IMG/VR virus record: IMGVR_UViG_3300050821_008367
Location: 1-63,902 of that record
DNA: 63,902 nucleotides
Source of the DNA: a virus
Reading direction: 5' to 3' (one strand)
The notes under the pieces were generated by a model that worked only from the letters and a program-made list of their open reading frames with translations, was not told where the DNA came from and did no database searches. Numbering within the stretch: position 1 is the stretch's first letter; each line of letters starts with the position of its first letter. A program made the translations under genes and the position numbers. Below, piece by piece: positions 7,588-42,500 of this stretch.

Positions 7588-7953
7588 TTGAATATCTTTG
7601 CCGCCTCCCTTGCGCTCTGCCTAACTTGCGTCATCATAGCCCGCGCGCAGCAACCGGAATGCGCACCACACCTGGATGTTCCACCTATCCGATTGGAGCA
7701 GTTATGGCTTCCGCCGGTCGACTTACCGCAACAAGGCAAGCTGATCATCACGCTGCGGGTCTGCGCGCCAAGCGATGGAGACCCTGGGTGCCAAATACGC
7801 CGCGCCGAATGGCAACGGGTCAAGGACGAAGTAGACCTGCACGGGCTGATCCTTGAAGACCTGCGCAACACAAAGGCTGGCCGGGTGGATTACTCGCTGC
7901 GCAGCCGCATCAAGGCCATCAGTAGGCGCCTGGCCGACAACCGCTACGAATGA
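7588..7953 (+). CDS. Secreted hypothetical protein
   Basis: 121 residues from TTG with AAGGAG 7 nt upstream. The N-terminus NIFAASLALCLTCVIIARAQ is a Sec signal peptide with cleavage after ARA. The mature part has paired cysteines (PECAPH, LRVCAPSDGDPGCQ) that could form disulfides, and a charged helical C-terminus. No family recognised. It is the first of two secreted proteins in the early operon. Confidence 0.6.
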   Translation: MNIFAASLALCLTCVIIARAQQPECAPHLDVPPIRLEQLWLPPVDLPQQGKLIITLRVCAPSDGDPGCQIRRAEWQRVKDEVDLHGLILEDLRNTKAGRVDYSLRSRIKAISRRLADNRYE

Positions 7954-8109: not shown

Positions 8110-8760
8110 GTGAGAAAGCTCTCCCTTTTCCTTCTCGCCGCCATGTTGTTCGTGGCAGGTACGGCAGTAACAAGCGCACAAACCTATACCGGCACCGTCG
8201 GGCAGTTCAACTGCGGTCAGTTGGCCGTCAGTTGCGACGGCCTGCCGCTGCTACTCAACAACGGGACCGAACTGGTGAACGAATCAATTTGGTTCGATCA
8301 GAACGTAGAGGCAGATTTTGTCGTGTTCCCGCTCGATCCCCTTGGCTTGGACACCTCGAACCCGAACCTCCTTGCCAAGATCACCAGCCCCATCCAGCAA
8401 CTCAGCACCGCCAAGGGAACGCAGACCATCTACCTGATGTTCAGCGGCACAGACAGTAAAGGCAAAGCGTACTCGGGGGCAATGAATTTGCACTACACCA
8501 CCTACTTGGTTGTCGGGCGCGGTGGCGGTGGGTGGCATTGGGTCGTGACCGGGGGAACAGTGGCGATCACTTATCCGCCAAGCTCCAGCGGCCTCACTGT
8601 GCGTCCCATGGCCAATGATCCCTGCTTTGGTGGCCAGATAATTCCCGGCCCTTACCAACCAACGGGCTGGCGTCTCTTGATTGCTGACTGGTGGTGGGGA
8701 GAAGCCTGTTGGGTGGATGGTTCAGTTAAGTATGTGATCTACGATTACCCTCTCTTGTAG
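8110..8760 (+). CDS. Secreted beta-rich hypothetical protein
   Basis: 216 residues from GTG, with AAGGAG about 10 nt upstream. MRKLSLFLLAAMLFVAGTAV then SAQ is a clear Sec signal peptide with an AxA-type site. The mature protein is rich in Thr, Gly and aromatic residues with several Cys, suggesting an extracytoplasmic beta domain. No family recognised. Its location in the early rather than the structural region suggests a host-surface modification or lysogenic conversion function, which is inference. Confidence 0.65.
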   Translation: MRKLSLFLLAAMLFVAGTAVTSAQTYTGTVGQFNCGQLAVSCDGLPLLLNNGTELVNESIWFDQNVEADFVVFPLDPLGLDTSNPNLLAKITSPIQQLSTAKGTQTIYLMFSGTDSKGKAYSGAMNLHYTTYLVVGRGGGGWHWVVTGGTVAITYPPSSSGLTVRPMANDPCFGGQIIPGPYQPTGWRLLIADWWWGEACWVDGSVKYVIYDYPLL

Positions 8761-17569: not shown

Positions 17570-18070
17570 TCAACCAACTACCGTCATGTCGCTTGATAAC
17601 ATCAGCGCCACATCATGCGCCCTCTTGCCCACCTGCTCGGCCCACTTAGACGCAAGCGCCTCATTGGAAGCAGAAATCCAGTCACCATCTTTAACATCAG
17701 CGATGAAGTGGTGAAAGGTCAGGAAGTGGCCTTCCCCCATGAAGGCCATGTCGATAAGAGCCACCTGGCGATTGACGGAATAGGTTGAAAACTCAGGGAA
17801 TACGTTGGTCAACCACTCGATGGTGGAGATGATGCACTGGGACAGAAGGTGGTCGCACTGCTCGGGCGTAAGATCCGCGGTGCCGGCCAGCAGAGCATCG
17901 TAATCGGCGCCGATCCGCATGACCATTTCGCGCGCGCCAGGCTGCGCGAGATTGAAGCCGACGCCGATGGTCCAGATGCCTAGAGAGTCACGGTAGCGGC
18001 GCAGTCTTTTGCCTTCATGCTTGATAAGAAGCGCGCATGCTGATTCGATAACGTTCGGCTCGGTGGGCAT
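17570..18070 (-). CDS. Endolysin, GH24 T4-type lysozyme
   Basis: 166 residues from MPTEPNVIES, preceded by GAGGTT. LLIKHEGKRLRRYRDSLG followed by IWTIGVGFN is the GH24 catalytic signature: Glu in HEG, Asp in RDSLG, Thr in TIG. It cleaves the muramic acid-N-acetylglucosamine bond of peptidoglycan. It has no signal peptide or anchor, so release should depend on a holin. The holin candidates are downstream and a coiled-coil/TM protein upstream. Two TTGATAA heptamers (17593-17599 and 18021-18027) fall in this gene. Confidence 0.93.
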   Translation of the reverse strand: MPTEPNVIESACALLIKHEGKRLRRYRDSLGIWTIGVGFNLAQPGAREMVMRIGADYDALLAGTADLTPEQCDHLLSQCIISTIEWLTNVFPEFSTYSVNRQVALIDMAFMGEGHFLTFHHFIADVKDGDWISASNEALASKWAEQVGKRAHDVALMLSSDMTVVG

Positions 18071-18080
18071 CAGGGTAACC

Positions 18081-18341
18081 TCACTTGTGGAAGTATGGCG
18101 CCAGAGCGCGCGCGATTTCACAGACCCCCGCGCACACTCCAACGGTCGTCGCTACGATCTTCACGAACTTCACTATGCCAGCTATCTGCATCTCAATCCT
18201 CTCGAACGCCGCGATTTTCTCTGCGTGTTCCTTAAGGGCCGGATCGACGACCAGCGTCCGCCAACTTTCAAGATCGCCGAGGCGATGGTCAACCGTGTTG
18301 TGAGATTCCGGCATTTCTGCTCCCCAATTTGAAGTGGTCAT
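18081..18341 (-). CDS. Coiled-coil plus transmembrane small protein, XhlA-like
   Basis: 86 residues (alternative start at 18314). A charged helical N-terminal half (HRLGDLESWRTLV...KIAAFERIEMQIA) is followed by one hydrophobic helix and a short end. This layout resembles XhlA-type haemolysin or holin accessory proteins. It sits directly upstream of the endolysin and is probably part of the lysis cassette. Confidence 0.55.
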   Translation of the reverse strand: MTTSNWGAEMPESHNTVDHRLGDLESWRTLVVDPALKEHAEKIAAFERIEMQIAGIVKFVKIVATTVGVCAGVCEIARALAPYFHK

Positions 18342-18381: not shown

Positions 18382-21258
18382 TTAGAACTGAGTTCCCTGT
18401 GAGTGGCCCTCAATCGGCCCGATTCTGACGTGCGTCGCTGCAGCCGTCAAGGTTGTGTTAGCGAAAAAGTCGTACATCTGCTCCCCGGTCCCTATGAGTT
18501 TGGTGGAGTTAGTCACACAAGTTCCGCTGGTTGCGGGGGTGGTTGTGTTGAGACACGCCGTTACACTGGCCATCGACGCCGCCCACGTCATGGACGCAAA
18601 CACTGTAGCCACTGTGGGCGCAACCGATCCGATGGCGGTACAAGCCGGGGTTCCGGTGTCGTTGTCGGTGCAGAGCAGGTAGGTGGTGTCGCTCAGGGAA
18701 GTGTCGTAGCGAATGAATGCGTAGTCACAGGAGGCTGGATTGCTTCCCGACGCCACGGCCACGATGGTGCTCATGGCGCAGGTATGAGTGCCCCCCACCA
18801 CGCCCATCTGAATACGTGCATTCGAGGAATAATCCCCGCTGGCCGAGAAAGACCATGACCATAAAAGCTGCGGTTGACTTCCGGCACGCCACTCATACAC
18901 AGGTGTGGTGGCGGAAATTTGGGAGGCAAACCCAGCGCAATTTCCACTGGTGCCTCCCGATGTCCACTGATCCTGCACCGGGCCGCTGGCCGTGGCGGAG
19001 GTTACACCTATAGATGCCGTGCTAGCACAAGGGATGAAAGTTGACCCTGCAATCGTCGTAGTCGTCGCGCCGCCAGGATACCAACGCTCAACCAGTCCGG
19101 CATAAGGTATCTGCGTTCCTGCACCCGCCGGAATTGTGCATGTGTTGGTATCACCTTCCAGGTAGCAGCCTGTGGTCGTAGAGCCATACAGTGAGGTCAC
19201 GTTAGCAGCGGTCGCAGTGGTTGTCTGCCCGGCAGCGGTGCGCCTTACGATTCCGTTTGCGCCCGAATCCTGCAAGACGGATACAGACCCGCAATTGGTC
19301 GTTGTGGTGACACCCACGCACACGTTCCCGATCATCTGCGGAGCGCCGGTCGTGCCGCTAGTGAGCACAAAGGCGGTCGGCATGTTGTAAATGGTGTTGT
19401 GACTCAGATCGCCACCGGGGGCTGGGGAAAAGAATCCAAAGCCCGCGCCAAGAGCACCGTTGATCCCGAAGACTTGGTTGTTGTTGACAATAGCCTGCGC
19501 GTCGGCGGTGTTTGAGCCGTCTACTAATATGCCGTAAGCAAGGGAACTTGTCGTTGCGTCTAGTGTGATCTTATTGCCAATGGCCACTGATTGCGGGAAA
19601 ACAGTCGTCGCTCCGTGCAGCTGAATTCCAACGGTCCTGCCGCCAATCATGTGAACTGTGTTGTTAGAAATGGTGGCACCCGTGCTCTGATCGCTGATCC
19701 CGGCATCGCTTGCGGTCGTAGAGCCGTTGTTAACAAGGATGTTATTACCATTGAAGACGCACTCCGTACAGTGTCCGTTCCCCGAGCCTGTTTGAATCGC
19801 ATTCGTAGCTGTGCTCGCGGTTCCATTCGACACGACAATATCGTTGTTTGTAACGCTTACTCGATAAGACGTGGCGAACAAAATTCCGGCTATGTTACCA
19901 GCGCTACCTGAAGGCAGCGTAAGGTAAATTTTGTTGCGGTCAATGCTGGTGTTAACCACACCCTGTGATGGATTGATGGCGTTATTTGCGTAGGGGGATT
20001 TAATGGTGTTGTCGTGTATCCACCCGTTTTGATTGCCCCATGCAAGCTGCGTGAACGTGCTCAATCCAGCCTCATAGTAGTTTCCTGAAAGCTCGAAGTG
20101 ATCCAGCATGAAGGATGGATTCATTACAAGCCCAACACCTGTAGGCTGCATGGAAATTATGTTGTTCTTTATCTTTAGATACTTTACGGGTCCATCTACA
20201 AACACGAAGTCACGCGGGGTGTTGATGACCGTGCAGCCCTCAACGGATAGGTCGGTGCGGTATCCGCTTGCTCCCGAAGGGACAGGTATCGCCGCCACTG
20301 TCGTCAGTGGAATGCCATTGAATGAACTGGCATTCCCGGTATAAGGCTTGCTAGTAGGATGATCTAGGCCCACAACTCCCGTTCCAGAATTAATCGATGT
20401 GATGGTGAATTGCTCCCCATCCCACCCCGCTTCAGTTCCGGGAGCGCCAAATAAATACAAATCCTGACCAACCGTGAAATTGGATGTGTCTGTAGGCGTG
20501 GGAAATGTGATCGATTGCGCTCCCGGAGCACTTATTGGTGTCACGTTGTAGTAGGTCTGCGAAGAGGGGAATGCCCATGTGGTCGCGTCGAGATGAAGTA
20601 CCGCTGGCGCACTAGAACCACCAGCGAAGTCCTGCATGTCGATTACCGCACCCACCGCACACTGCACATGTAAGTGATCCGCAGAAGCAAACACGATGCC
20701 GTTTGAGTGGCCCGGAGCATATGAAGATATTCGATAAGTCCCGCGCGGGAAGTACACCGTTCCGTGGCCCGCTGATACGACGGCGGCAAAAGCCGCTCTA
20801 ATGGCTGGAGCAGCGTCAGTGGTGTCGTTTCCGATTGCCCCATAAGTGGGGTTGGTAATGTCGGAAACGGGCAGCAACGCGGGAACCGTAGCGTTGGCCG
20901 CGACGTTGCCTGGAACGTTCAGGTTGTTTCCGGTAGAATCCGAGGTTATGTTGCACGGTGCAAGGGTCGCCCCGGACAAAAGTGGATAGCAGGGCACCTG
21001 GTAAGTAGCCCCCGGGTTGACCGTTCCGCCGCCGCCCGCGCCATGCTTCACCCACCCGCTGACTGCGCACTTATAATCATCCCCGGTCGTGATGTCGGTG
21101 TACGGCTGCCCGTAGTTGACGCTCGTGCAGGATATAGTAGGCGCGCCAGATCCAGTTAGTGTTGTCCACTTGACCTGCGTGAGGGGATTGATCTGGGTCT
21201 GGGCAGAAGCCAGCAGCGAGCTTCCGATGAGCAGCACGGCGGTAATTAGTCGTTTCAT
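18382..21258 (-). CDS. Secreted pectate-lyase-like beta-helix (tail-spike-like) protein
   Basis: 958 residues from MKRLITAVLL. A Sec signal peptide ends in LLASAQ. Residues about 20-75 form a module shared with the SGNH protein at 22074 (TQINPLTQVKW, CTSVNYGQPYTDI). From about residue 135 the sequence YGAIGNDTTDAAPAIRAAF and GTVYFPRGTYRIS match the Pectate_lyase_3 start of phage tail spikes, followed by a long parallel beta-helix region of NNxI/V-type coils and a beta-rich C-terminus. Position downstream of tail protein I suits a receptor-binding depolymerase; the signal peptide argues for export. Which is true is open. Confidence 0.8.
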   Translation of the reverse strand: MKRLITAVLLIGSSLLASAQTQINPLTQVKWTTLTGSGAPTISCTSVNYGQPYTDITTGDDYKCAVSGWVKHGAGGGGTVNPGATYQVPCYPLLSGATLAPCNITSDSTGNNLNVPGNVAANATVPALLPVSDITNPTYGAIGNDTTDAAPAIRAAFAAVVSAGHGTVYFPRGTYRISSYAPGHSNGIVFASADHLHVQCAVGAVIDMQDFAGGSSAPAVLHLDATTWAFPSSQTYYNVTPISAPGAQSITFPTPTDTSNFTVGQDLYLFGAPGTEAGWDGEQFTITSINSGTGVVGLDHPTSKPYTGNASSFNGIPLTTVAAIPVPSGASGYRTDLSVEGCTVINTPRDFVFVDGPVKYLKIKNNIISMQPTGVGLVMNPSFMLDHFELSGNYYEAGLSTFTQLAWGNQNGWIHDNTIKSPYANNAINPSQGVVNTSIDRNKIYLTLPSGSAGNIAGILFATSYRVSVTNNDIVVSNGTASTATNAIQTGSGNGHCTECVFNGNNILVNNGSTTASDAGISDQSTGATISNNTVHMIGGRTVGIQLHGATTVFPQSVAIGNKITLDATTSSLAYGILVDGSNTADAQAIVNNNQVFGINGALGAGFGFFSPAPGGDLSHNTIYNMPTAFVLTSGTTGAPQMIGNVCVGVTTTTNCGSVSVLQDSGANGIVRRTAAGQTTTATAANVTSLYGSTTTGCYLEGDTNTCTIPAGAGTQIPYAGLVERWYPGGATTTTIAGSTFIPCASTASIGVTSATASGPVQDQWTSGGTSGNCAGFASQISATTPVYEWRAGSQPQLLWSWSFSASGDYSSNARIQMGVVGGTHTCAMSTIVAVASGSNPASCDYAFIRYDTSLSDTTYLLCTDNDTGTPACTAIGSVAPTVATVFASMTWAASMASVTACLNTTTPATSGTCVTNSTKLIGTGEQMYDFFANTTLTAAATHVRIGPIEGHSQGTQF

Positions 21259-21275
21259 GGATATATTCGATCCCT

Positions 21276-22061
21276 TCACTTACCGACCCAGCAGTTATAG
21301 TTATCCACGTACATCGTGACCGTGGCGTTGGCGTTTGAATCTTCCTGCACCTGGCAACCGTAGACGGCCGAGAATCCAGAGTTTAGCGTCGTCGCCGGCA
21401 TGGTGGCGCCGCCCCATGAGGCGGTCACTCCGTCAACCGTCACCGTGCCGAAGTGCTCACACGGCACGCCACCGGTGCAGGCTGTGTCGGTGGGCAGGTA
21501 CCAGTCGTAAAATATGACGTGATGCCAGGCGCCCGCAGTGAGCGCTGCGCATGACATTGAGGTATCAGTCCACGAGCTCGTCTGGTTGGCATATTGCCAG
21601 TGCCCCGTGGTCGTGTTGCATTGATGCCCAAACATGGCATCCCAATTCCCGTTAGTTTTGTTGAAGATGAACGAGTCGGCTTCGTGATTGGCTGCCGAGC
21701 TTGAGACGTACCACTGAAAGTCGTAGAGGATCCACGTGCAGGTATCGCACGCGCCGGGCTTCATATAGAACAGGCCGTTGTTTCCGCTGGCTGGCGACGA
21801 GAATGAGAGTTGCAGGCTCGCGCCGCTCACCGAAGGCGACGCTACGCCGGTCGTCATCGTGAAACTGGCCGAGTTGCCGGCTCCGCCGGCGCACGCAGTC
21901 GAGCCGCAGTTGCCCCAATTCGATGTCGATACCTGCTGGCTAGTCGAAAGCCCTATGTGGGTCTGTGTCGGAATCGTTTGGGCGCAAGCCACCACGCCGA
22001 ATAGAGCTAAGAACGAGAGAGCGAACTTTACCAATTGCCACCCCTTTTTCAGTTCAGTCAT
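21276..22061 (-). CDS. Secreted LamG/concanavalin-like protein
   Basis: 261 residues from ATG at 22061 (GGGGAT just upstream; in-frame ATG at 22070). A signal peptide ends near VVACAQ. The mature part is a beta-sandwich candidate with disulfide-type cysteines and the segments FQWYVSSSAA, GAWHHVIFYDWYLP and GTVTVDGV typical of LamG-like lectin folds. It probably binds glycans. It is one of four consecutive genes with signal peptides. Confidence 0.65.
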   Translation of the reverse strand: MTELKKGWQLVKFALSFLALFGVVACAQTIPTQTHIGLSTSQQVSTSNWGNCGSTACAGGAGNSASFTMTTGVASPSVSGASLQLSFSSPASGNNGLFYMKPGACDTCTWILYDFQWYVSSSAANHEADSFIFNKTNGNWDAMFGHQCNTTTGHWQYANQTSSWTDTSMSCAALTAGAWHHVIFYDWYLPTDTACTGGVPCEHFGTVTVDGVTASWGGATMPATTLNSGFSAVYGCQVQEDSNANATVTMYVDNYNCWVGK

Positions 22062-22073
22062 GATCCCCATAGC

Positions 22074-25000
22074 TCAGTGGAGCGTCCAAACTCCCACCTG
22101 CGTGTATGCTTCCCACTGTGTTGTCGAGATTCCCACCAGGCACGCCGCATCGCCAGCCGCGCCCGAAGAGATGATGTAGCCGCTCGATGATTTCGTGCCG
22201 TTTAAGACAATCGACTGCGTGCCCGTGTTGGCGACAAGAAGCTCTAACGTCCCCGTGTCCGCCGCCGATCCGTTATTCGAATTCTTGAAGCACAACTGCG
22301 CTCCGGCAGTCGGGGCGGGGAGTGTGTAGGTGATGGCTGCTGCCGCCGTAGCGTCCTGGTTGTAGTAGTAGCCCGCCGTGGCGGATACCGCGTTGGTGGT
22401 CGTGATGGTTACAGTCACCGCGCCCGTGCCGCAGTCCGCGCCCGTGCCGCCGAGTACTCCGCTCACCGAATGAATGCACTGCGTCCCGGAAAGGTTTAGG
22501 TTTCCGCCTCCCGGTGGCAGCGTCACGACCGCATGTCCTGATGGAGAACCTGTCAGGCGGAAGTAATTCGTCGCGGATGAGAGTCCATCAAGGTAGATAT
22601 CGCCGAAGAACTGGCCGCCGGTCGCGTTGAATGCATACTGATCAGGCGGTGTCGATCCACCGCCATAGATCAGCAGGCCACCAGTGCCGCTATTGGTGCG
22701 CGCGTTGATCTCAACCACGTTGGCCCCTGCGCCACTGTTGATCTCCGTGGCGCCGTTCTGTGTGGCCAAGTAGCGAATCAGGTTGTTGGTGAAATCGATC
22801 AGCCGGAAGCTGTTATCCGACTCTTTATAGAGGCCCCACCGCGAGGCGTTCAGGTAGTCGTAGAAGTAGTATCCGCACCGCTGGTCTGCCGTAAGGCCCG
22901 CGCGGCAAAGGATTGTGTTGGTCGCATCCGCGCCGTTGTAGAAGGTGTTCAGCGAGTTCGCGAAGACCATCTGCTGCGAAATAGTCCCCGACGTATGGCC
23001 AAAGTTCGAGGTTGAAGAACCGAAGAACGTCGCGAACGGCGCAGGGCTGGTACCGGCCGGTGCGTAGAACAAGCTCCATCCGTTACCGGTCAACTGCATG
23101 GTGTAAGAAGCGATAGCCGAGGAGCCCTGGCACCAGAGGTCGATCCCGGCGCCACCGCACTGGTAGGCGTTGAACGTCGTGTCAAACGCCGAGCCATACT
23201 GCGAGCCAATCGAGTTCGAAACAATCGGCCAGCCGAAAGCGATCTGGTTGCCATTCGAGGCATTGCCGGCAAGCGCGTAGGCGTTCATCACGGTATTGCC
23301 GCCCGCCTGGATGCCGCGGCGGAAGGGATTGGTCACCAGGAAGTTCCCCACCGTGGTCCCTGATCCGGTCATGTTGACCGCCTGGCTCTTCAGCGCGCGC
23401 ACTGCAGCCGCGACGGCATTCGCGATGATCTGATACCCGTACTGATTGAGGTGGGTGCCATCGCTCGATGTCCAGCCGCCGCCGGCCGTGTGGCTCACTG
23501 CAGAGCCCGCAGATGCGCCGTAGTTGCGCACGCAAGTGCCCGGCGTGCCGCCCGTATAGCCTGTTACCTGAACGTTCTCGGCATTGGTTGTTCCGGCATC
23601 GAGCGTCACGTACCCGCCCAAGGCGCCGTTGGTGATCGTGAGCGTCGGGCAGCCGGTGGTTCCAAGATTGCTGGTCAGGGTTCCGTAAGCGACCACATCG
23701 CGCTCTGACGTGCACGGGATGCCGTTGTTGTGGTCCACCACGTCGGTCGGAAGGTTAAGGTTGCAGCCGTTAAGTAGCGCGCCCCATGTGTCCACGAAGG
23801 TCCAGTTGGGATGGCTGACCGAAGTTGTGTACAGGGCCGAAAGGTCATTCTTGTAAGTCGTGAAGGTCGCATAACTCCCGCCACTCGACCACTGCGAAGA
23901 CACGTTGGCCGGGAAGGTATCCATCACCACCAGGTAGCCATTAGAAGGCGTCTGCGCCGCCACTGCCGCGACGCTACCCTCAACCACCGACAGGCCGAAC
24001 GGATAAGAGCCATTCGCAAACAGGTTGTTGGTCCCCGTCATGATGGCGAGATTGCATCCCGGGCAGGGATTGTCGACTGTGAAGGCGGGCGTGCCTGTGA
24101 GGGTCGCGCCCGGCGTTCCGGCATCTGGCGTGAAGTACATCAGCGCCACATATGATCCAGACGCCGGCAGGTTGCCGCTCCCGTTGGCACATCCCGTCAC
24201 GGCGAACGACACCGAGGTCGTTGAGCCGCCGGTGAGCGTCTGTGGGCCGTTCAGGCTTCCACTGCACCCCGTGGGCCCGGTCAGGCTAGAGACGTTCACC
24301 AGCATGCCTGACGTGAAGGTTGTAGTGGATCCGGAGATCAGCACCAGGTTGCTCAACGTGACAACGCCGCCACTCACGGACCATGCCCCGGTAAAGGTGC
24401 CGGAGAACAGGCCTTCCATCTGAGCCTGGAGAATGCAGGTGCCGTGGATGTTCGCGCTGCCGGCAACTGTTCCGGTCACGGGCGGCAGGTTGTTGTAAGA
24501 GGTCGAAACGGTGGTGCATTCGTATCCGGGCGCAAACGTCACGCTGATGGGCGTGCAGGGTGCCACGGTGCAGGCCGGTACGTTGCCGCTGAACATGGCG
24601 AAGGCCGATGCTGTCGCGCCGTTCTTGACCGCCGCCTGCGTAGATGTGGAACCGCCAACGCCCGTGTTGAGAACCGGGCCTATCTCGGTCTGAAGGATCG
24701 AAGGGTAGCTGTCGGGCGCGGGCCACAGGCCACCGGAGTTGACGCCCTCAAAGCCTGCCGTGAGCGAGTCGCCCGGCGTGTTCAGGATGCCGAAGTTCTG
24801 GACTGGACTCGGGACATTGACCGGCTCTGTCGATGTAACTACACCCCCTGCATCAGTCAGGTGCGACTGCGCGCCGATGACGGTGGAAGCTGTGCCCAAG
24901 GGGACCACGTTGTTTGCCTGGCCAGATATGGATCCGCCCGAGCCGCCGACCGTCTCCCATCCTGCCGGCGTGCACTGGTAATAAACCGGCGTGGCAGGAA

Positions 25001-25178
25001 TGGATATGTCCGTGTAGGGTTGGCCGTAATTGAGAGATGTGCATGGGCCCGTTGGGACGCCGATGCCCGTCACCAGAGCCCAGTCGATCTGGCTTGCCGG
25101 ACTGATCTTCGTTTGCGCCAGAACTGCGGTTGCGCTGAGAAAAATCAAGGAACCGAATTTCGAAGCGCAGGCCCGCAT
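22074..25178 (-). CDS. Secreted SGNH/GDSL esterase-type fibre protein
   Basis: 1034 residues from MRACASKFGS, preceded by AGGAGAT. Signal peptide ending AVLAQ, then the N-terminal module shared with the 18382 gene (SPASQIDW, CTSLNYGQPYTDI). The SGNH hydrolase blocks are visible: TPGDSLTAG (block I Ser), TGVGGST (block II), TGTNNL (block III) and SDGTHLNQYG (block V Asp-His). The C-terminal half is Gly/Ala/Thr-rich and fibre-like. Likely a deacetylase or esterase acting on host polysaccharide, either on the virion or secreted. Confidence 0.78.
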   Translation of the reverse strand: MRACASKFGSLIFLSATAVLAQTKISPASQIDWALVTGIGVPTGPCTSLNYGQPYTDISIPATPVYYQCTPAGWETVGGSGGSISGQANNVVPLGTASTVIGAQSHLTDAGGVVTSTEPVNVPSPVQNFGILNTPGDSLTAGFEGVNSGGLWPAPDSYPSILQTEIGPVLNTGVGGSTSTQAAVKNGATASAFAMFSGNVPACTVAPCTPISVTFAPGYECTTVSTSYNNLPPVTGTVAGSANIHGTCILQAQMEGLFSGTFTGAWSVSGGVVTLSNLVLISGSTTTFTSGMLVNVSSLTGPTGCSGSLNGPQTLTGGSTTSVSFAVTGCANGSGNLPASGSYVALMYFTPDAGTPGATLTGTPAFTVDNPCPGCNLAIMTGTNNLFANGSYPFGLSVVEGSVAAVAAQTPSNGYLVVMDTFPANVSSQWSSGGSYATFTTYKNDLSALYTTSVSHPNWTFVDTWGALLNGCNLNLPTDVVDHNNGIPCTSERDVVAYGTLTSNLGTTGCPTLTITNGALGGYVTLDAGTTNAENVQVTGYTGGTPGTCVRNYGASAGSAVSHTAGGGWTSSDGTHLNQYGYQIIANAVAAAVRALKSQAVNMTGSGTTVGNFLVTNPFRRGIQAGGNTVMNAYALAGNASNGNQIAFGWPIVSNSIGSQYGSAFDTTFNAYQCGGAGIDLWCQGSSAIASYTMQLTGNGWSLFYAPAGTSPAPFATFFGSSTSNFGHTSGTISQQMVFANSLNTFYNGADATNTILCRAGLTADQRCGYYFYDYLNASRWGLYKESDNSFRLIDFTNNLIRYLATQNGATEINSGAGANVVEINARTNSGTGGLLIYGGGSTPPDQYAFNATGGQFFGDIYLDGLSSATNYFRLTGSPSGHAVVTLPPGGGNLNLSGTQCIHSVSGVLGGTGADCGTGAVTVTITTTNAVSATAGYYYNQDATAAAAITYTLPAPTAGAQLCFKNSNNGSAADTGTLELLVANTGTQSIVLNGTKSSSGYIISSGAAGDAACLVGISTTQWEAYTQVGVWTLH

Positions 25179-25186
25179 TGAATCTC

Positions 25187-26263
25187 CTATGGGTGGTAAG
25201 TGAAGACATCGGCCTGCACGGTGCCGTAGCTGCCGCAATTGAATGTGCAGTAGACGCTGTAGCTGATGGTCGTAGCGGTTTTGGAGGTGACAACGATGCC
25301 GATGGAAGCCGCTGCGCTACTGGTCACCTGGAGAAGGGCCGCATATGCACTGTCAGCGTACCCGCCACCCGAAAGCGTGATAGATCCTGTGCAGTTCGCG
25401 TCAGTGGAAGTCGTAGGCGTGCACACGCTCGTGTTGACCATCACGATGGTCTTGCTTGCCAACAGCGGCGCGAAGCACCCCTGCGCCGTTCCGTTCGCCG
25501 CTATGCCGGTCGTCGCATTGTTGGCGGAGCAGTTCGAGGGAGACGCGGCCAGCGCGCTCGCCGTAGCGGCATTCGAGCTGATGTTCGCCGCCAGGTCGAC
25601 ATTGGTCCGAGACGGGGACGGGGAATCGGACAACACAAAGTTCGTGCTGAAGTTGTTCACCGACTCCTGCGGCATCGGCGTGCCATTGGTTTCATCGGTC
25701 TGGTAGTAGAGCGTCGCCGGCGTCGGGAGATTGAAACAGAGGGCATTCCAGTGGATATCGAGCCCGTAGGCATACTGGGTCGATGGATTGCAGGCCGCGC
25801 CAAGGGTCTGCTCCGCAGTCGCAGTGCTTGAGTTCCCCGTAAGTGGGCCGACAAAGCTTGTTGCCTGCCATGTGCCGGTGACCACGCCGCCCGCGGCCCA
25901 GTTGTCGGCGAGTGTCACGTCCGGAACAAAGTAGCTTCCGTAAGATGATCCGATCAGTAGGCCGTAATGGCCGACCGGCGCACAGAAGTAGTAATTGCCG
26001 CCGACGTCCGAGGTGTACGGCGTCAATGCAGTAGTCGGCGAAAAGGTCGTCAGCGTCGTATCGGCGTATGTCTGAACGATGTGCGCGGAGCAGTTTGAAA
26101 TCGTCGAACCCGGCGTACAGAGCGTGATGGTGGCAAACGGAATCGGAGCAATCAGGCCGTTCGATATGGTCTGGGCAACATTGTTGATGCACACGCCCAC
26201 CGGCGCCGCGACCGCGACAAGTTGCGCCGCGAAGAGCAGCGCGAGGCTGAGAAGCTTTTTCAT
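25187..26263 (-). CDS. Secreted Cys-containing fibre-like protein
   Basis: 358 residues from MKKLLSLALL (TGATG overlap with the upstream gene; a GTG lies one codon earlier). Signal peptide ending VAVAA. The mature part begins with a transthyretin/carboxypeptidase-regulatory-like segment (TITLCTPGS...YTSDVGGNYYFCAPVGHYGL) and continues as a low-complexity Ala/Ser/Thr region, ending in a beta domain. No enzyme motif seen. Probably a structural surface or fibre component. Confidence 0.65.
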   Translation of the reverse strand: MKKLLSLALLFAAQLVAVAAPVGVCINNVAQTISNGLIAPIPFATITLCTPGSTISNCSAHIVQTYADTTLTTFSPTTALTPYTSDVGGNYYFCAPVGHYGLLIGSSYGSYFVPDVTLADNWAAGGVVTGTWQATSFVGPLTGNSSTATAEQTLGAACNPSTQYAYGLDIHWNALCFNLPTPATLYYQTDETNGTPMPQESVNNFSTNFVLSDSPSPSRTNVDLAANISSNAATASALAASPSNCSANNATTGIAANGTAQGCFAPLLASKTIVMVNTSVCTPTTSTDANCTGSITLSGGGYADSAYAALLQVTSSAAASIGIVVTSKTATTISYSVYCTFNCGSYGTVQADVFTYHP

Positions 26264-26529
26264 CACACGATCCTTGGCTTGTCAGGATGGACGATGCGCC
26301 CCTGCTGTTCCTGGCCCACAATCTGCACGGTCAACGTTTTGCGGCAGGCCGGGTTTCCGCAGAAGGCGAGCGAAGCAATCTGACCCTTGGGGAAGACCTG
26401 GAACATCAGCGACAGCTTGAGCGGATCTTCACCGCAATAGGGGCAGACTGGCAGTACTACGGGCGGTGCAGCGGGTGCTTCCTGCGCTGCTTCCTGGACC
26501 AGACCTTGAACTTCGGCGACTTCCTGCAT
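26263..26529 (-). CDS. Small zinc-ribbon protein
   Basis: 88 residues from MQEVAEVQGL, with GGGGAG 10 nt upstream. VCPYCGEDP and FCGNPACRK give a four-Cys zinc site; the N-terminus is Ala/Pro/Gln-rich. Unknown role. It lies right after a terminator hairpin, so it may open the transcript of the secreted-protein module. Confidence 0.65.
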   Translation of the reverse strand: MQEVAEVQGLVQEAAQEAPAAPPVVLPVCPYCGEDPLKLSLMFQVFPKGQIASLAFCGNPACRKTLTVQIVGQEQQGRIVHPDKPRIV

Positions 26530-26642: not shown

Positions 26643-27770
26643 TTAGTAGCGGTAGAAGGCTAAGTGGACCGTGCTGGTCGGGGGCGCCGTGGTGTAAGTT
26701 ATCGTGGCTCCGGAAAGGGTGTAATCGAGGCCCTGTTTCATGAGTTGATAACCCGTGTAAAGCTTCAGGCTAAGTGCCGGGTTCGGCGCCTGCGGGAGGG
26801 TGAAAACCGTGTTCGAACCGTTGACCAGGCCTGCCGGCGTGATGTAATCCGCGAAGTTTGGCGTCGTGCCGGCGCCCGCATAGGTTCCGAAGGCCAGGAA
26901 GGAATCAGTGCCGATTGGCACCGTCGGCGTGATCACATTGCCCGAGATCGTGTAGTCCGCCGAAGAGGAGAGCGTTACGGCATCGAGCACGCTGCGCGCT
27001 GGTTTGAAGAAGTTCGCGATCGCGGTGACGAAGCCAAGTTGAGCCGTCGTCAGGCCTGGAGTCTGCAACAAGCCGTTGCGGTAGAGTTCGAGGTTGATTG
27101 GAACTTGCGGCAGGACTAACGTTGGACCCGAGACCGTCGGCACCACGGAATCAAAGTAGAGCGGCGTCGAAGTGCCGGACCGGTAGAGGCTCGATACCAG
27201 CGACCCCAAGACCGGTGCGAAGGTTGTCGTGAGGGCAAGCGACGAGACGGTGTAATCAGTGGTCGGCCGGAGCATCAGCCCGTTGTAGAACGCTCGCAGT
27301 GAATTGCCCGTCGGAAGCGCCCGCAACGTAAAGTTCCGGTTCACGCCATTGATAAGCCCGATGGGTGCCTGAAATGAACCACTGACCCCGACCCGGAATG
27401 CGGCCCATCCCTGGCTGGACGGGTAAGAGGATCCGCCCCATGAGGCCTGGCCCTCGAGTAGCGTCGCATAAACGCCGCACAGCGCGAGCGCTGTCTTCAG
27501 CGCCCATGGCGTTCCCAAGCGCTGGTGCAGCGGGATCGCGTTCTGGAGAATCGCCTGCTGTGTTGCCCCGAGGCTCTGCATGGCGGGCGCCGGAATGCTC
27601 ATGTCCAACTGCCATGTCATGTAGGGCAGGATCGATGCCGGCAGGTTGTTGCCCAGCGTCATCACCAGCAGTGGCGTCAGGTCCAAAGCCTGAAGGCGCG
27701 CCGAAAGTTGCAGATGCGCCTGGGTGCGCTGGTCATTGATGACGGATGCCGGAGTGAGGGTCGTCGCCAT
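26643..27770 (-). CDS. I: Tail protein I (P2 gpI-like) with extra C-terminal domains
   Basis: 375 residues. The first 120 residues match P2 gpI (ILPYMTWQLD, ...PLHQRLGTPWALKTALALCG). The remaining 250 residues contain repeated segments of the type xPxGxINGxNxxFTLxxxP...LxxYxNG, usually seen on phage receptor-binding or capsid-decorating proteins. Baseplate component between J and fibres. P2 gpI is about 176 residues, so this protein is fused to additional beta domains that may do receptor binding themselves. Confidence 0.85.
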   Translation of the reverse strand: MATTLTPASVINDQRTQAHLQLSARLQALDLTPLLVMTLGNNLPASILPYMTWQLDMSIPAPAMQSLGATQQAILQNAIPLHQRLGTPWALKTALALCGVYATLLEGQASWGGSSYPSSQGWAAFRVGVSGSFQAPIGLINGVNRNFTLRALPTGNSLRAFYNGLMLRPTTDYTVSSLALTTTFAPVLGSLVSSLYRSGTSTPLYFDSVVPTVSGPTLVLPQVPINLELYRNGLLQTPGLTTAQLGFVTAIANFFKPARSVLDAVTLSSSADYTISGNVITPTVPIGTDSFLAFGTYAGAGTTPNFADYITPAGLVNGSNTVFTLPQAPNPALSLKLYTGYQLMKQGLDYTLSGATITYTTAPPTSTVHLAFYRY

Positions 27771-27774
27771 GGCG

Positions 27775-29055
27775 TTAGCTCACCGGCTGGTTCTTTGTTC
27801 CGAGAACAATCGTCAGGTTGATGGTGGTACAGTTCGCCCACTGGCCTGCAGTCAGGACAAAGCTGCCGTCCGAGGATGGCGTTAGAGGCGATCCTCCGAT
27901 GTTCGCCGTCAGGGTGAGCTGCATGTCGTATACGCCGGCGACCGAAAGCGCTGCGGTCCACTGGGCCGGCACGATGTCCTGTGCGATGCGGGCGGCGAGG
28001 GAAAGCATCATGGCCTGCGCCGCCGCAGTGATGCCTGCCGCCACGGTGGCGTAGTCGACGTTCGCGTAAAGCGTGATGGCACCCGTCACGGTGTAATCGA
28101 CTTCGGTGACCGGAAGCACCGAAACGGTGTCGCAGATCGGACGGACCGTATCGGCATTGAGGGTCGACTGGACAGCCGAGAGCAGCGCACCTGAAGGGAT
28201 TCCAGTGTTGTTTGGATAGGCCGCCGGCTGCGTTGCCGGGCCTGTGAGGATGTAGACGTTCACGGTACCGGGTACCGGCGTCACGACCTGCGCGTCGACG
28301 ATAGTCGAGCTGACGCCAAGCGCCAGGGATCGGTACTGCCCCGACGGGCCCGCAGTCGTGAGGTTGTTCGGCGCCGCCTGGATCCGCGAGCGGTAGTGGT
28401 TGTCGCCGGCGGTTGTTCCGGCCGTTTCCCCGTCCGATCCGTTGCCCGTCGTGGCCGTATTCGAAACCGAGGCCACCAGCGCATTGGTCGTCAGAGGGAT
28501 GTTGACCGTTCCGGCCAGGTATCCGTTGCCTGCAGCGCCGGGCGTTGCGCAGGTTGCCGCCACGGTGCCGGTGGTCTGCCCGGCCGGGATCACCAGCGCG
28601 GCCGTGGTCGAGAACGTGAAGGCGCCGTCGCTGGTGCCGGCGTTGTATCCGGCGGCGATTGTGGTCGAAGTTCCCTGTGGACCGGTGAGGGTGATCAGAA
28701 GCGTAGTCGTCGCCGGCTGGGCCGGTTGCCGGGGCACGTTGAAGAGCTGCCCGATGTAGTCGAGCATCGGATACACGGCAAACGCGAGCAGGTTCTGCTG
28801 GCCGCAGTACTGGACTGCGTTCCGGATCAGCGATTCGCGGTAAGCATACAGGTTGATAAGCAGCTGCTCGACCTGCGCGGGGTAGAGGGTGCGGCCGGTT
28901 GCGCTCTCGAAAGAGGCGATCATGTCATTCAGGATCGAAGTTACATTCAGGCCGTCCGCGTCATTTACGAAGGTCGGCGAGGGAAGGTTGACCGGGACCT
29001 TTTGAGGGGTTCCACTTACGGCCGGGATCGAATTGCTCGGGACTATTACGGGCAA
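27775..29055 (-). CDS. J: Baseplate protein J
   Basis: 426 residues. TGRTLYPAQVEQLLINLYAY, LLAFAVYPMLDYIGQLFNVP and the two beta domains followed by GDNHYRSRIQAAP identify the P2 gpJ/Mu gp47 baseplate wedge family. Longer than P2 J (302 residues) owing to a Thr/Gly-rich middle part. It precedes I in the normal P2 order (W, J, I). Confidence 0.92.
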   Translation of the reverse strand: MPVIVPSNSIPAVSGTPQKVPVNLPSPTFVNDADGLNVTSILNDMIASFESATGRTLYPAQVEQLLINLYAYRESLIRNAVQYCGQQNLLAFAVYPMLDYIGQLFNVPRQPAQPATTTLLITLTGPQGTSTTIAAGYNAGTSDGAFTFSTTAALVIPAGQTTGTVAATCATPGAAGNGYLAGTVNIPLTTNALVASVSNTATTGNGSDGETAGTTAGDNHYRSRIQAAPNNLTTAGPSGQYRSLALGVSSTIVDAQVVTPVPGTVNVYILTGPATQPAAYPNNTGIPSGALLSAVQSTLNADTVRPICDTVSVLPVTEVDYTVTGAITLYANVDYATVAAGITAAAQAMMLSLAARIAQDIVPAQWTAALSVAGVYDMQLTLTANIGGSPLTPSSDGSFVLTAGQWANCTTINLTIVLGTKNQPVS

Positions 29056-42119: not shown

Positions 42120-42500
42120 TTACTGCAATGCGCAAAGAAGTACGGCGCCCTGCATCGGCGCGAGGTAGAACGTGATCTGCCTTCCGAGTTGCGTGTAATC
42201 TGTGCCCAGAAACTGCAGGATGCCCCCCTGCCAGATGTTGAATAGGGCAGACGGCGATGGATTGAACGGCAGATAGAAGATTTGGTTGGTGCCGTCCGCG
42301 ACGCCCACCAGTTGGCTTATCGTGCCGCTCGATGGATTGGTCGGCGGCGGCGCGCTGGCGAAGCGCACGAATCCGTCCGCAAACAGGCGCGCGATCTGAT
42401 TGGGATCGCTCACCGTGAACGCTCCGCTCGATACGGGATAGTTCACCCCAAGGACCGTAACCGAAGTTACGCCCGCGGGTGCCGCGAACGTTACGCTCAT
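42120..42500 (-). CDS. Hypothetical head-region beta protein
   Basis: 126 residues. VTSVTVLGVNYPVSSGAFTV and DPNQIARLFADGFVRFA in the first half, then NQIFYLPFNPSPSALFNIW, with a design like small capsid-associated proteins. The start ATG overlaps the TGA of the upstream small gene. Function unknown. Confidence 0.6.
   Translation of the reverse strand: MSVTFAAPAGVTSVTVLGVNYPVSSGAFTVSDPNQIARLFADGFVRFASAPPPTNPSSGTISQLVGVADGTNQIFYLPFNPSPSALFNIWQGGILQFLGTDYTQLGRQITFYLAPMQGAVLLCALQ

Follow-up and report, generated by a model that had tools for sequence, protein, structure and literature searches.

Signal peptides on tail fibre proteins of a contractile-tailed phage suggest an export-then-docking route

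Introduction

The stretch of DNA analysed here (the window; 63,902 bases) is a contractile-tailed phage record in IMG/VR, and four consecutive genes in its fibre region begin like genes of secreted proteins. We know of no tailed phage that completes its tail outside the cytoplasm, and no exported tail fibre was described in the literature that we searched, which was mostly open-access. How, then, are these four proteins to be understood? The initial annotation had pointed to the paradox of receptor-binding-type domains placed behind Sec signal peptides (SPs). This was correctly seen: the SPs were confirmed, and two of the three proposed domain types were supported. Two ways out had been offered: the proteins are exported glycan-modifying enzymes, or their hydrophobic N-terminus is an anchor in the virion. 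Here, we put forward a third reading, in which exported fibres become parts of the virion. It fits the SPs, the operon position, the fibre tips, the absence of other fibre candidates and the SP-less partner gene alike.

Results

The fibre region of the window

PHROG and Pfam searches recognised a sheath, a tape measure, a D-like baseplate hub, V, W, J, I, portal, terminase and endolysin. The four SP genes all lie on the minus strand and run consecutively from 18382 to 26266, each with its open reading frame where it had been annotated. They had been described as following tail gene I; a zinc-ribbon-like gene intervenes, so that the order reads gene I, zinc-ribbon-like gene, four SP genes, endolysin (Table 1). 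The endolysin is likely part of a lysis cassette.

Likely starts of the SP genes were corrected using ribosome sites. Protein 1 probably begins at ATG 21258, within a long reading frame that opens at GTG 21279. Protein 3 probably begins at ATG 25178, with an AGGAGA ribosome site upstream, and the listed TTG 25238 is too long; the likely start of protein 4 is GTG 26266 or ATG 26263.

Table 1. Features of the fibre region and its neighbours in the window (^ marks the predicted cut)
Feature	Coordinates	Strand	Remarks
Endolysin	17570..18142	-	directly downstream of the SP genes
Protein 1, putative SP tail spike/fibre	18382..21279	-	predicted SP MKRLITAVLLIGSSLLASA^QT, then the shared module and a pectate-lyase-like beta-helix
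Mature N-terminal module of protein 1	20998..21201	-	QTxI.P..Q..W...P...C...YGQPY...Y.C..GW; invariant Cys pair
Protein 2, SP protein	21276..22070	-	predicted SP ...FGVVACA^QT; start ATG 22061 or 22070
Protein 3, putative SP tail fibre/spike	22074..25178	-	predicted SP MRACASKFGSLIFLSATAVLA^QT; shared module; SGNH-esterase-like domain
Protein 4, putative SP tail fibre (family B)	25187..26266	-	predicted SP MKKLLSLALLFAAQLVAVA; base conserved (up to six Cys), C-terminal tip hypervariable
Zinc-ribbon-like protein, 102 aa	26263..26571	-	separates gene I from the SP genes; synteny kept in relatives
Tail gene I (Tail_P2_I), without SP	26643..27770	-	three ~60-aa beta domain copies in the C-terminal part
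Baseplate J	27775..29055	-	relatives 70-73% identical

All four proteins begin with a predicted signal peptide

The first ~35 residues of each protein were scanned with a home-made routine based on a basic n-region, a hydrophobic core and the -3/-1 rule, a score of at least 10.5 counting as a pass. A Sec/SPase I-type SP was predicted at the N-terminus of all four fibre-region proteins, compared with two of 43 other chosen coding genes (8110 and 16932; Fisher p = 8.4e-5), which bears out the row of four SP genes described initially. Composition-matched random N-termini passed in 110 of 20,000 cases (0.55%). The pass of 16932 looks like a chance match or a membrane segment. The early-region gene 8110-8760 (+) has a clear SP ending in TSA^QT, and its protein has no relative in IMG/VR at the sensitivity used. 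It was one of two early proteins thought to be secreted; the other, 7588-7953, is doubtful, having no basic n-region and not passing the scan.

Cleavage had been placed after CAQ, SAQ or LAQ. The -3/-1 rule puts the site one residue earlier, before the glutamine (ASA^QT, ACA^QT and VLA^QT; in general AxA^QT). A search for the lipobox pattern [LVI][ASTVI][GAS]C returned VVAC in protein 2, as an alternative reading of its ACA^QT site; no lipobox was read in the other three sequences. A host among the Acidobacteriota, proposed from the AQT cut site alone, is only a guess.

The signal drifts while the mature module is conserved

Proteins 1 and 3 share their N-terminus, as had been noticed, and are 45% identical across ~80 aa, SP included. 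The mature part of this shared region is a ~55-residue module in which W, P, C, G, C, G and W do not vary, its Cys pair being invariant across homologues. An IMG/VR scan, whose E-values are relative only, found the module in 75 loci. In every homologue whose 5' end is intact, an SP immediately precedes the start of the module or, in L070, an inserted domain; L070 has its own upstream SP, which resolves this apparent exception. Two SPs (L059, L010) are present and were missed by the scan. The residue at +1 is Gln in 35 of 43 cases. One truncated copy counts against the pattern: a 440-aa protein (L015:2278-3600, also L012:2697-4019), encoded immediately behind a structural gene, has the latter half of the module and no SP. 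In a second family, that of protein 4 (family B), SP-type N-termini were found in 33 of 33 distinct proteins, although 24 of these scored only 'sp?' in the scan, which disallowed Trp, and were called by eye.

These alignments bear on the anchor reading, according to which the hydrophobic N-terminus stays uncleaved and plugs the fibre into the baseplate. Such an anchor would need no export and would leave the normal cytoplasmic assembly route intact. However, an anchor that packs against a partner should be held by it, whereas SP-to-SP identity falls to ~20% in pairs that retain 40-65% identity in the mature module, with a constant mature start. Because the SP sequence drifts while the module behind it stays conserved, we interpret the segment as a cleaved signal and rejected the uncleaved anchor. 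The basic n-region, the AxA^Q end and the conserved, Cys-paired mature domain directly behind it, together with the high Cys content, also speak against an anchor, which we consider very unlikely. Export of the SP proteins is well supported by the SP and tail-fibre tests, from which export and cleavage are both predicted.

The mature chains of proteins 1 to 4 contain 20, 10, 22 and 12 cysteines, respectively; even counts in four of four chains are expected by chance in 1 of 16 cases. Cysteines per 100 residues amount to 2.1-4.2 in these proteins versus 0-1.4 in tail genes G-J/I and, across relatives, to 1.87 in SP proteins versus 0.79 in other tail genes (p = 3e-9). An AF2 model of the module was of modest quality (pLDDT 71), and a PDB fold search with it gave no significant match, only weak ones to trimerisation and tailspike domains; the AF2 model of family B was too poor to use. 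Five loci (L066, L067, L068, L071, L072) encode a 132-aa SP protein with little beyond the module, with no gene for the candidate docking domain described below within up to 20 kb.

Sequence features identify the proteins as tail fibres or spikes

Two of the three domain types proposed at first were recovered. Protein 1 is pectate-lyase-like (Pfam 5.4e-6, 0.2 bits under the cut-off) and matches a PHROG tail spike family (1.3e-6), a weak match as for the window proteins in general. In protein 3, the SGNH match is below the Pfam cut-off (0.0012), and SGNH blocks I, II, III and V are intact (GDSLT/G/GTNN/DGTH at residues 136/173/382/573). The LamG-like domain suggested for protein 2 was dropped: Pfam and PHROG profile searches found no known domain in this protein, whose sole relative lies on a near-identical contig.

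Clearer fibre domains were found in relatives. Behind the SP and module, L041 matches a PHROG tail fibre (1e-24), L028 a tail spike (3e-14) and L003 a tail fibre (1e-9), related to proteins of Klebsiella and Burkholderia phages. Family B, with 51 loci and 33 distinct members, combines a conserved base containing up to six conserved cysteines with swapped C-terminal tips. The tip in L019 is Gp53-like_C (PF21882; 7.4e-10, above the curated cut-off) and that in L034 is a weaker match; the tip of protein 4 itself differs from Gp53-like_C. Relative to other carriers of this tip, the SP-fibres are distinguished by its placement behind an SP and a Cys-rich base.

Genomic position provides a further line of evidence. 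A scan with J found 30 close relatives, and in all 27 with more than 60% identity and enough downstream sequence, the gene that follows J encodes an SP-fibre, mostly after a gap of 12-23 bases. The SP-fibre gene therefore belongs to the baseplate operon, where it separates J from I. The check proposed initially, whether the module always follows gene I, gave a different result: most P2-like relatives have it between J and I, and other tail types have it after other anchors. Taken as sequence evidence, these data indicate that the SP proteins are tail fibres or spikes. Among 31 proteins, none had an S74-type chaperone, which counts against exported fibres.

A rival interpretation is that the proteins are exported and never join the virion, acting as free depolymerases, esterases or adhesins that strip colony exopolysaccharide and aid the spread of progeny. 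This would account for the SPs, the Cys pairs and the enzyme-like domains (pectate-lyase-like, SGNH), and free tailspikes do form plaque halos in some other phages. It accounts less well for SP genes placed between baseplate J and I, for the Gp53-like_C tips and PHROG fibre domains, for the many module or SP proteins without a recognisable enzyme domain and for the conserved SP-less partner gene described below. Moreover, PHROG and Pfam searches found no SP-less fibre candidate elsewhere in the window. We regard free enzymes as unlikely.

An SP-less partner carries a candidate docking domain

Gene I contains a ~60-aa beta domain three times (residues 133-192, 204-265 and 306-371). The same domain was found in 75 of 103 module loci, across several tail types and mostly within a few hundred bases of the fibre gene; of the 28 loci lacking it, most are contigs that end close to the fibre. 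It occurs in the SP-less neighbour in three copies in the window, in one copy in anchor proteins of 126-135 aa, and in two or three copies in others. The domain was present in none of 54 genome loci with related J genes.

In an independent test, 47 loci were fetched by anchor sequence alone, giving 31 distinct cases with a readable next gene. An SP gene follows the anchor in 28 of these 31 (26 by score, two weaker cases on visual inspection), and the two genes usually share 16-50 bases. Overall, SP genes were seen in several kinds of tail: in myophages, both P2-like ones and others that have a Baseplate_J protein, in one lambda/GTA-like siphophage (L050) and in apparent podophages (L059, L080) with a T7-gp17-like N-terminal anchor.

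The domain profile matches stretches of two solved fibre proteins, 8i4m (cyanophage P-SCSP1u gp28; 1.9e-5) and 9k4a (K1 depolymerase; 2.6e-5), as well as PHROG tail fibre and baseplate wedge families. 8i4m and 9k4a are modular receptor-binding proteins; here, by contrast, an SP-less anchor carries the domain, and a separate protein with an SP forms the distal fibre. From its neighbourhood and this weak homology, we propose the ~60-aa domain of gene I and the anchors as a candidate docking site.

Further loci show unusual arrangements. A 126-aa protein among the head genes of the window (42120-42500, -) has one docking-like domain copy (8e-14), and something may dock on the head as well. In L057 (6528-20168), a 483-aa protein that has three docking-like domains is followed by five consecutive large SP proteins, and L059 (2872-8937) encodes a virion-type protein of 2021 aa that combines a PBECR3 nuclease domain with an LPD22 domain.

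A proposed route of export and docking

The best explanation, which we consider probable, is that receptor-binding fibres or spikes are exported, disulphide-bonded and then docked onto virions at lysis. The four genes would encode fibres or spikes of the contractile-tailed phage, made as preproteins that Sec exports and signal peptidase I cuts at AxA^Q. In the periplasm, outside the cytoplasm, the Cys-rich mature chains would fold and oxidise to disulphides. Heads and tails would meanwhile assemble fibreless in the cytoplasm, the baseplate carrying gene I or the anchor. Once holin and endolysin open the envelope, virions would encounter the periplasmic fibre pool, and the N-terminal module of the fibre would bind the ~60-residue domain found at the C-terminal end of gene I or, in phages of other types, of the SP-less anchor that takes its place. 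The SPs and the fibre nature come from sequence tests; late docking and the role of the docking domain are what we infer from them. Late docking is physically plausible, because, in vitro, tailspikes of P22 can still be attached to heads that lack tails.

Relation to known phages and consequences

The window tail resembles P2/Mu-type tails in having the genes for sheath, tape measure, V, W, J and I in the same order, in fibre genes beside I and in variable C-terminal tips. It differs in that its fibres open with cleavable-type SPs and gene I has three extra C-terminal domain copies. Among the matches listed, no proteobacterial prophage with the same tail type (Pseudomonas, Burkholderia and others) has an SP-fibre at the same position. 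The searched plasmids and cultured phages contain no homologue of protein 1 or of the module, and the searched cultured phages none of family B.

SP-bearing genes of other kinds have been described in phages. Lambda Lom is an SP-bearing outer-membrane protein encoded between the tail spike and tail fibre genes (PMC12309495), and five Porphyromonas (P. gingivalis) phage genes of unknown function have SPs that expose an N-terminal Gln (PMC10367356), as in the Q-rule of Bacteroidetes (PMC5837995). The window proteins could accordingly be lysogenic-conversion or surface proteins in a prophage fibre region, altering the host surface or blocking superinfection. Lom, however, is an outer-membrane barrel expressed in lysogens and no fibre, and the Porphyromonas genes are not described as tail fibres (PMC10367356). 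The window proteins match no beta-barrel family, relatives bear tail-fibre tips, and the genes lie inside the baseplate operon. In addition, the module occurs in 75 viral contigs versus none of 84,980 bacterial genomes scanned, a result on which host-derived secreted genes were also rejected. A Lom-like role is very unlikely.

Exported fibres that dock late remain the preferred reading, and for this soil-type virus and about a hundred related contigs it suggests a route that, to our knowledge, has no description among tailed phages. If it is true, part of tail assembly takes place in the periplasm or at lysis, disulphide-bonded fibres become possible and the fibres of co-infecting phages could mix. 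It would also affect annotation. Lack of an SP has been taken as support for the phage origin of DGR target proteins (PMC6199706); if these fibres are exported, its use sorts receptor-binding proteins wrongly among bacterial or auxiliary metabolic genes, and the misfiled set would include polysaccharide-active proteins of soil viruses.

Related tail clusters in Binatota genomes

The nearest J relatives in genomes belong to Binatota. Metagenome-assembled genomes (MAGs) of this group contain related tail clusters (J 51-58% identical) with an SP protein of 600-1324 aa after the last tail gene, whose Cys-containing N-terminal module differs from that of the window. A whole class of tailed phages may finish their tails outside the cytoplasm, with Sec-exported fibres, periplasmic oxidation and docking at lysis via a dedicated domain pair, and the Binatota clusters would have a similar SP-fibre arrangement with an unrelated module; we lean slightly towards this wider proposal. 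The Binatota-type clusters may be domesticated tailocins with exported fibres. Ten GTDB loci from Binatota-type MAGs (L096, L098, L101, L104-L106, L108, L110, L111 and L133) have P2-like tail clusters with one SP protein each, carrying a Cys-rich QYQxIP or QNLPPP module. Some Binatota-type tail clusters adjoin similar host genes (purE-like, potassium-channel-like).
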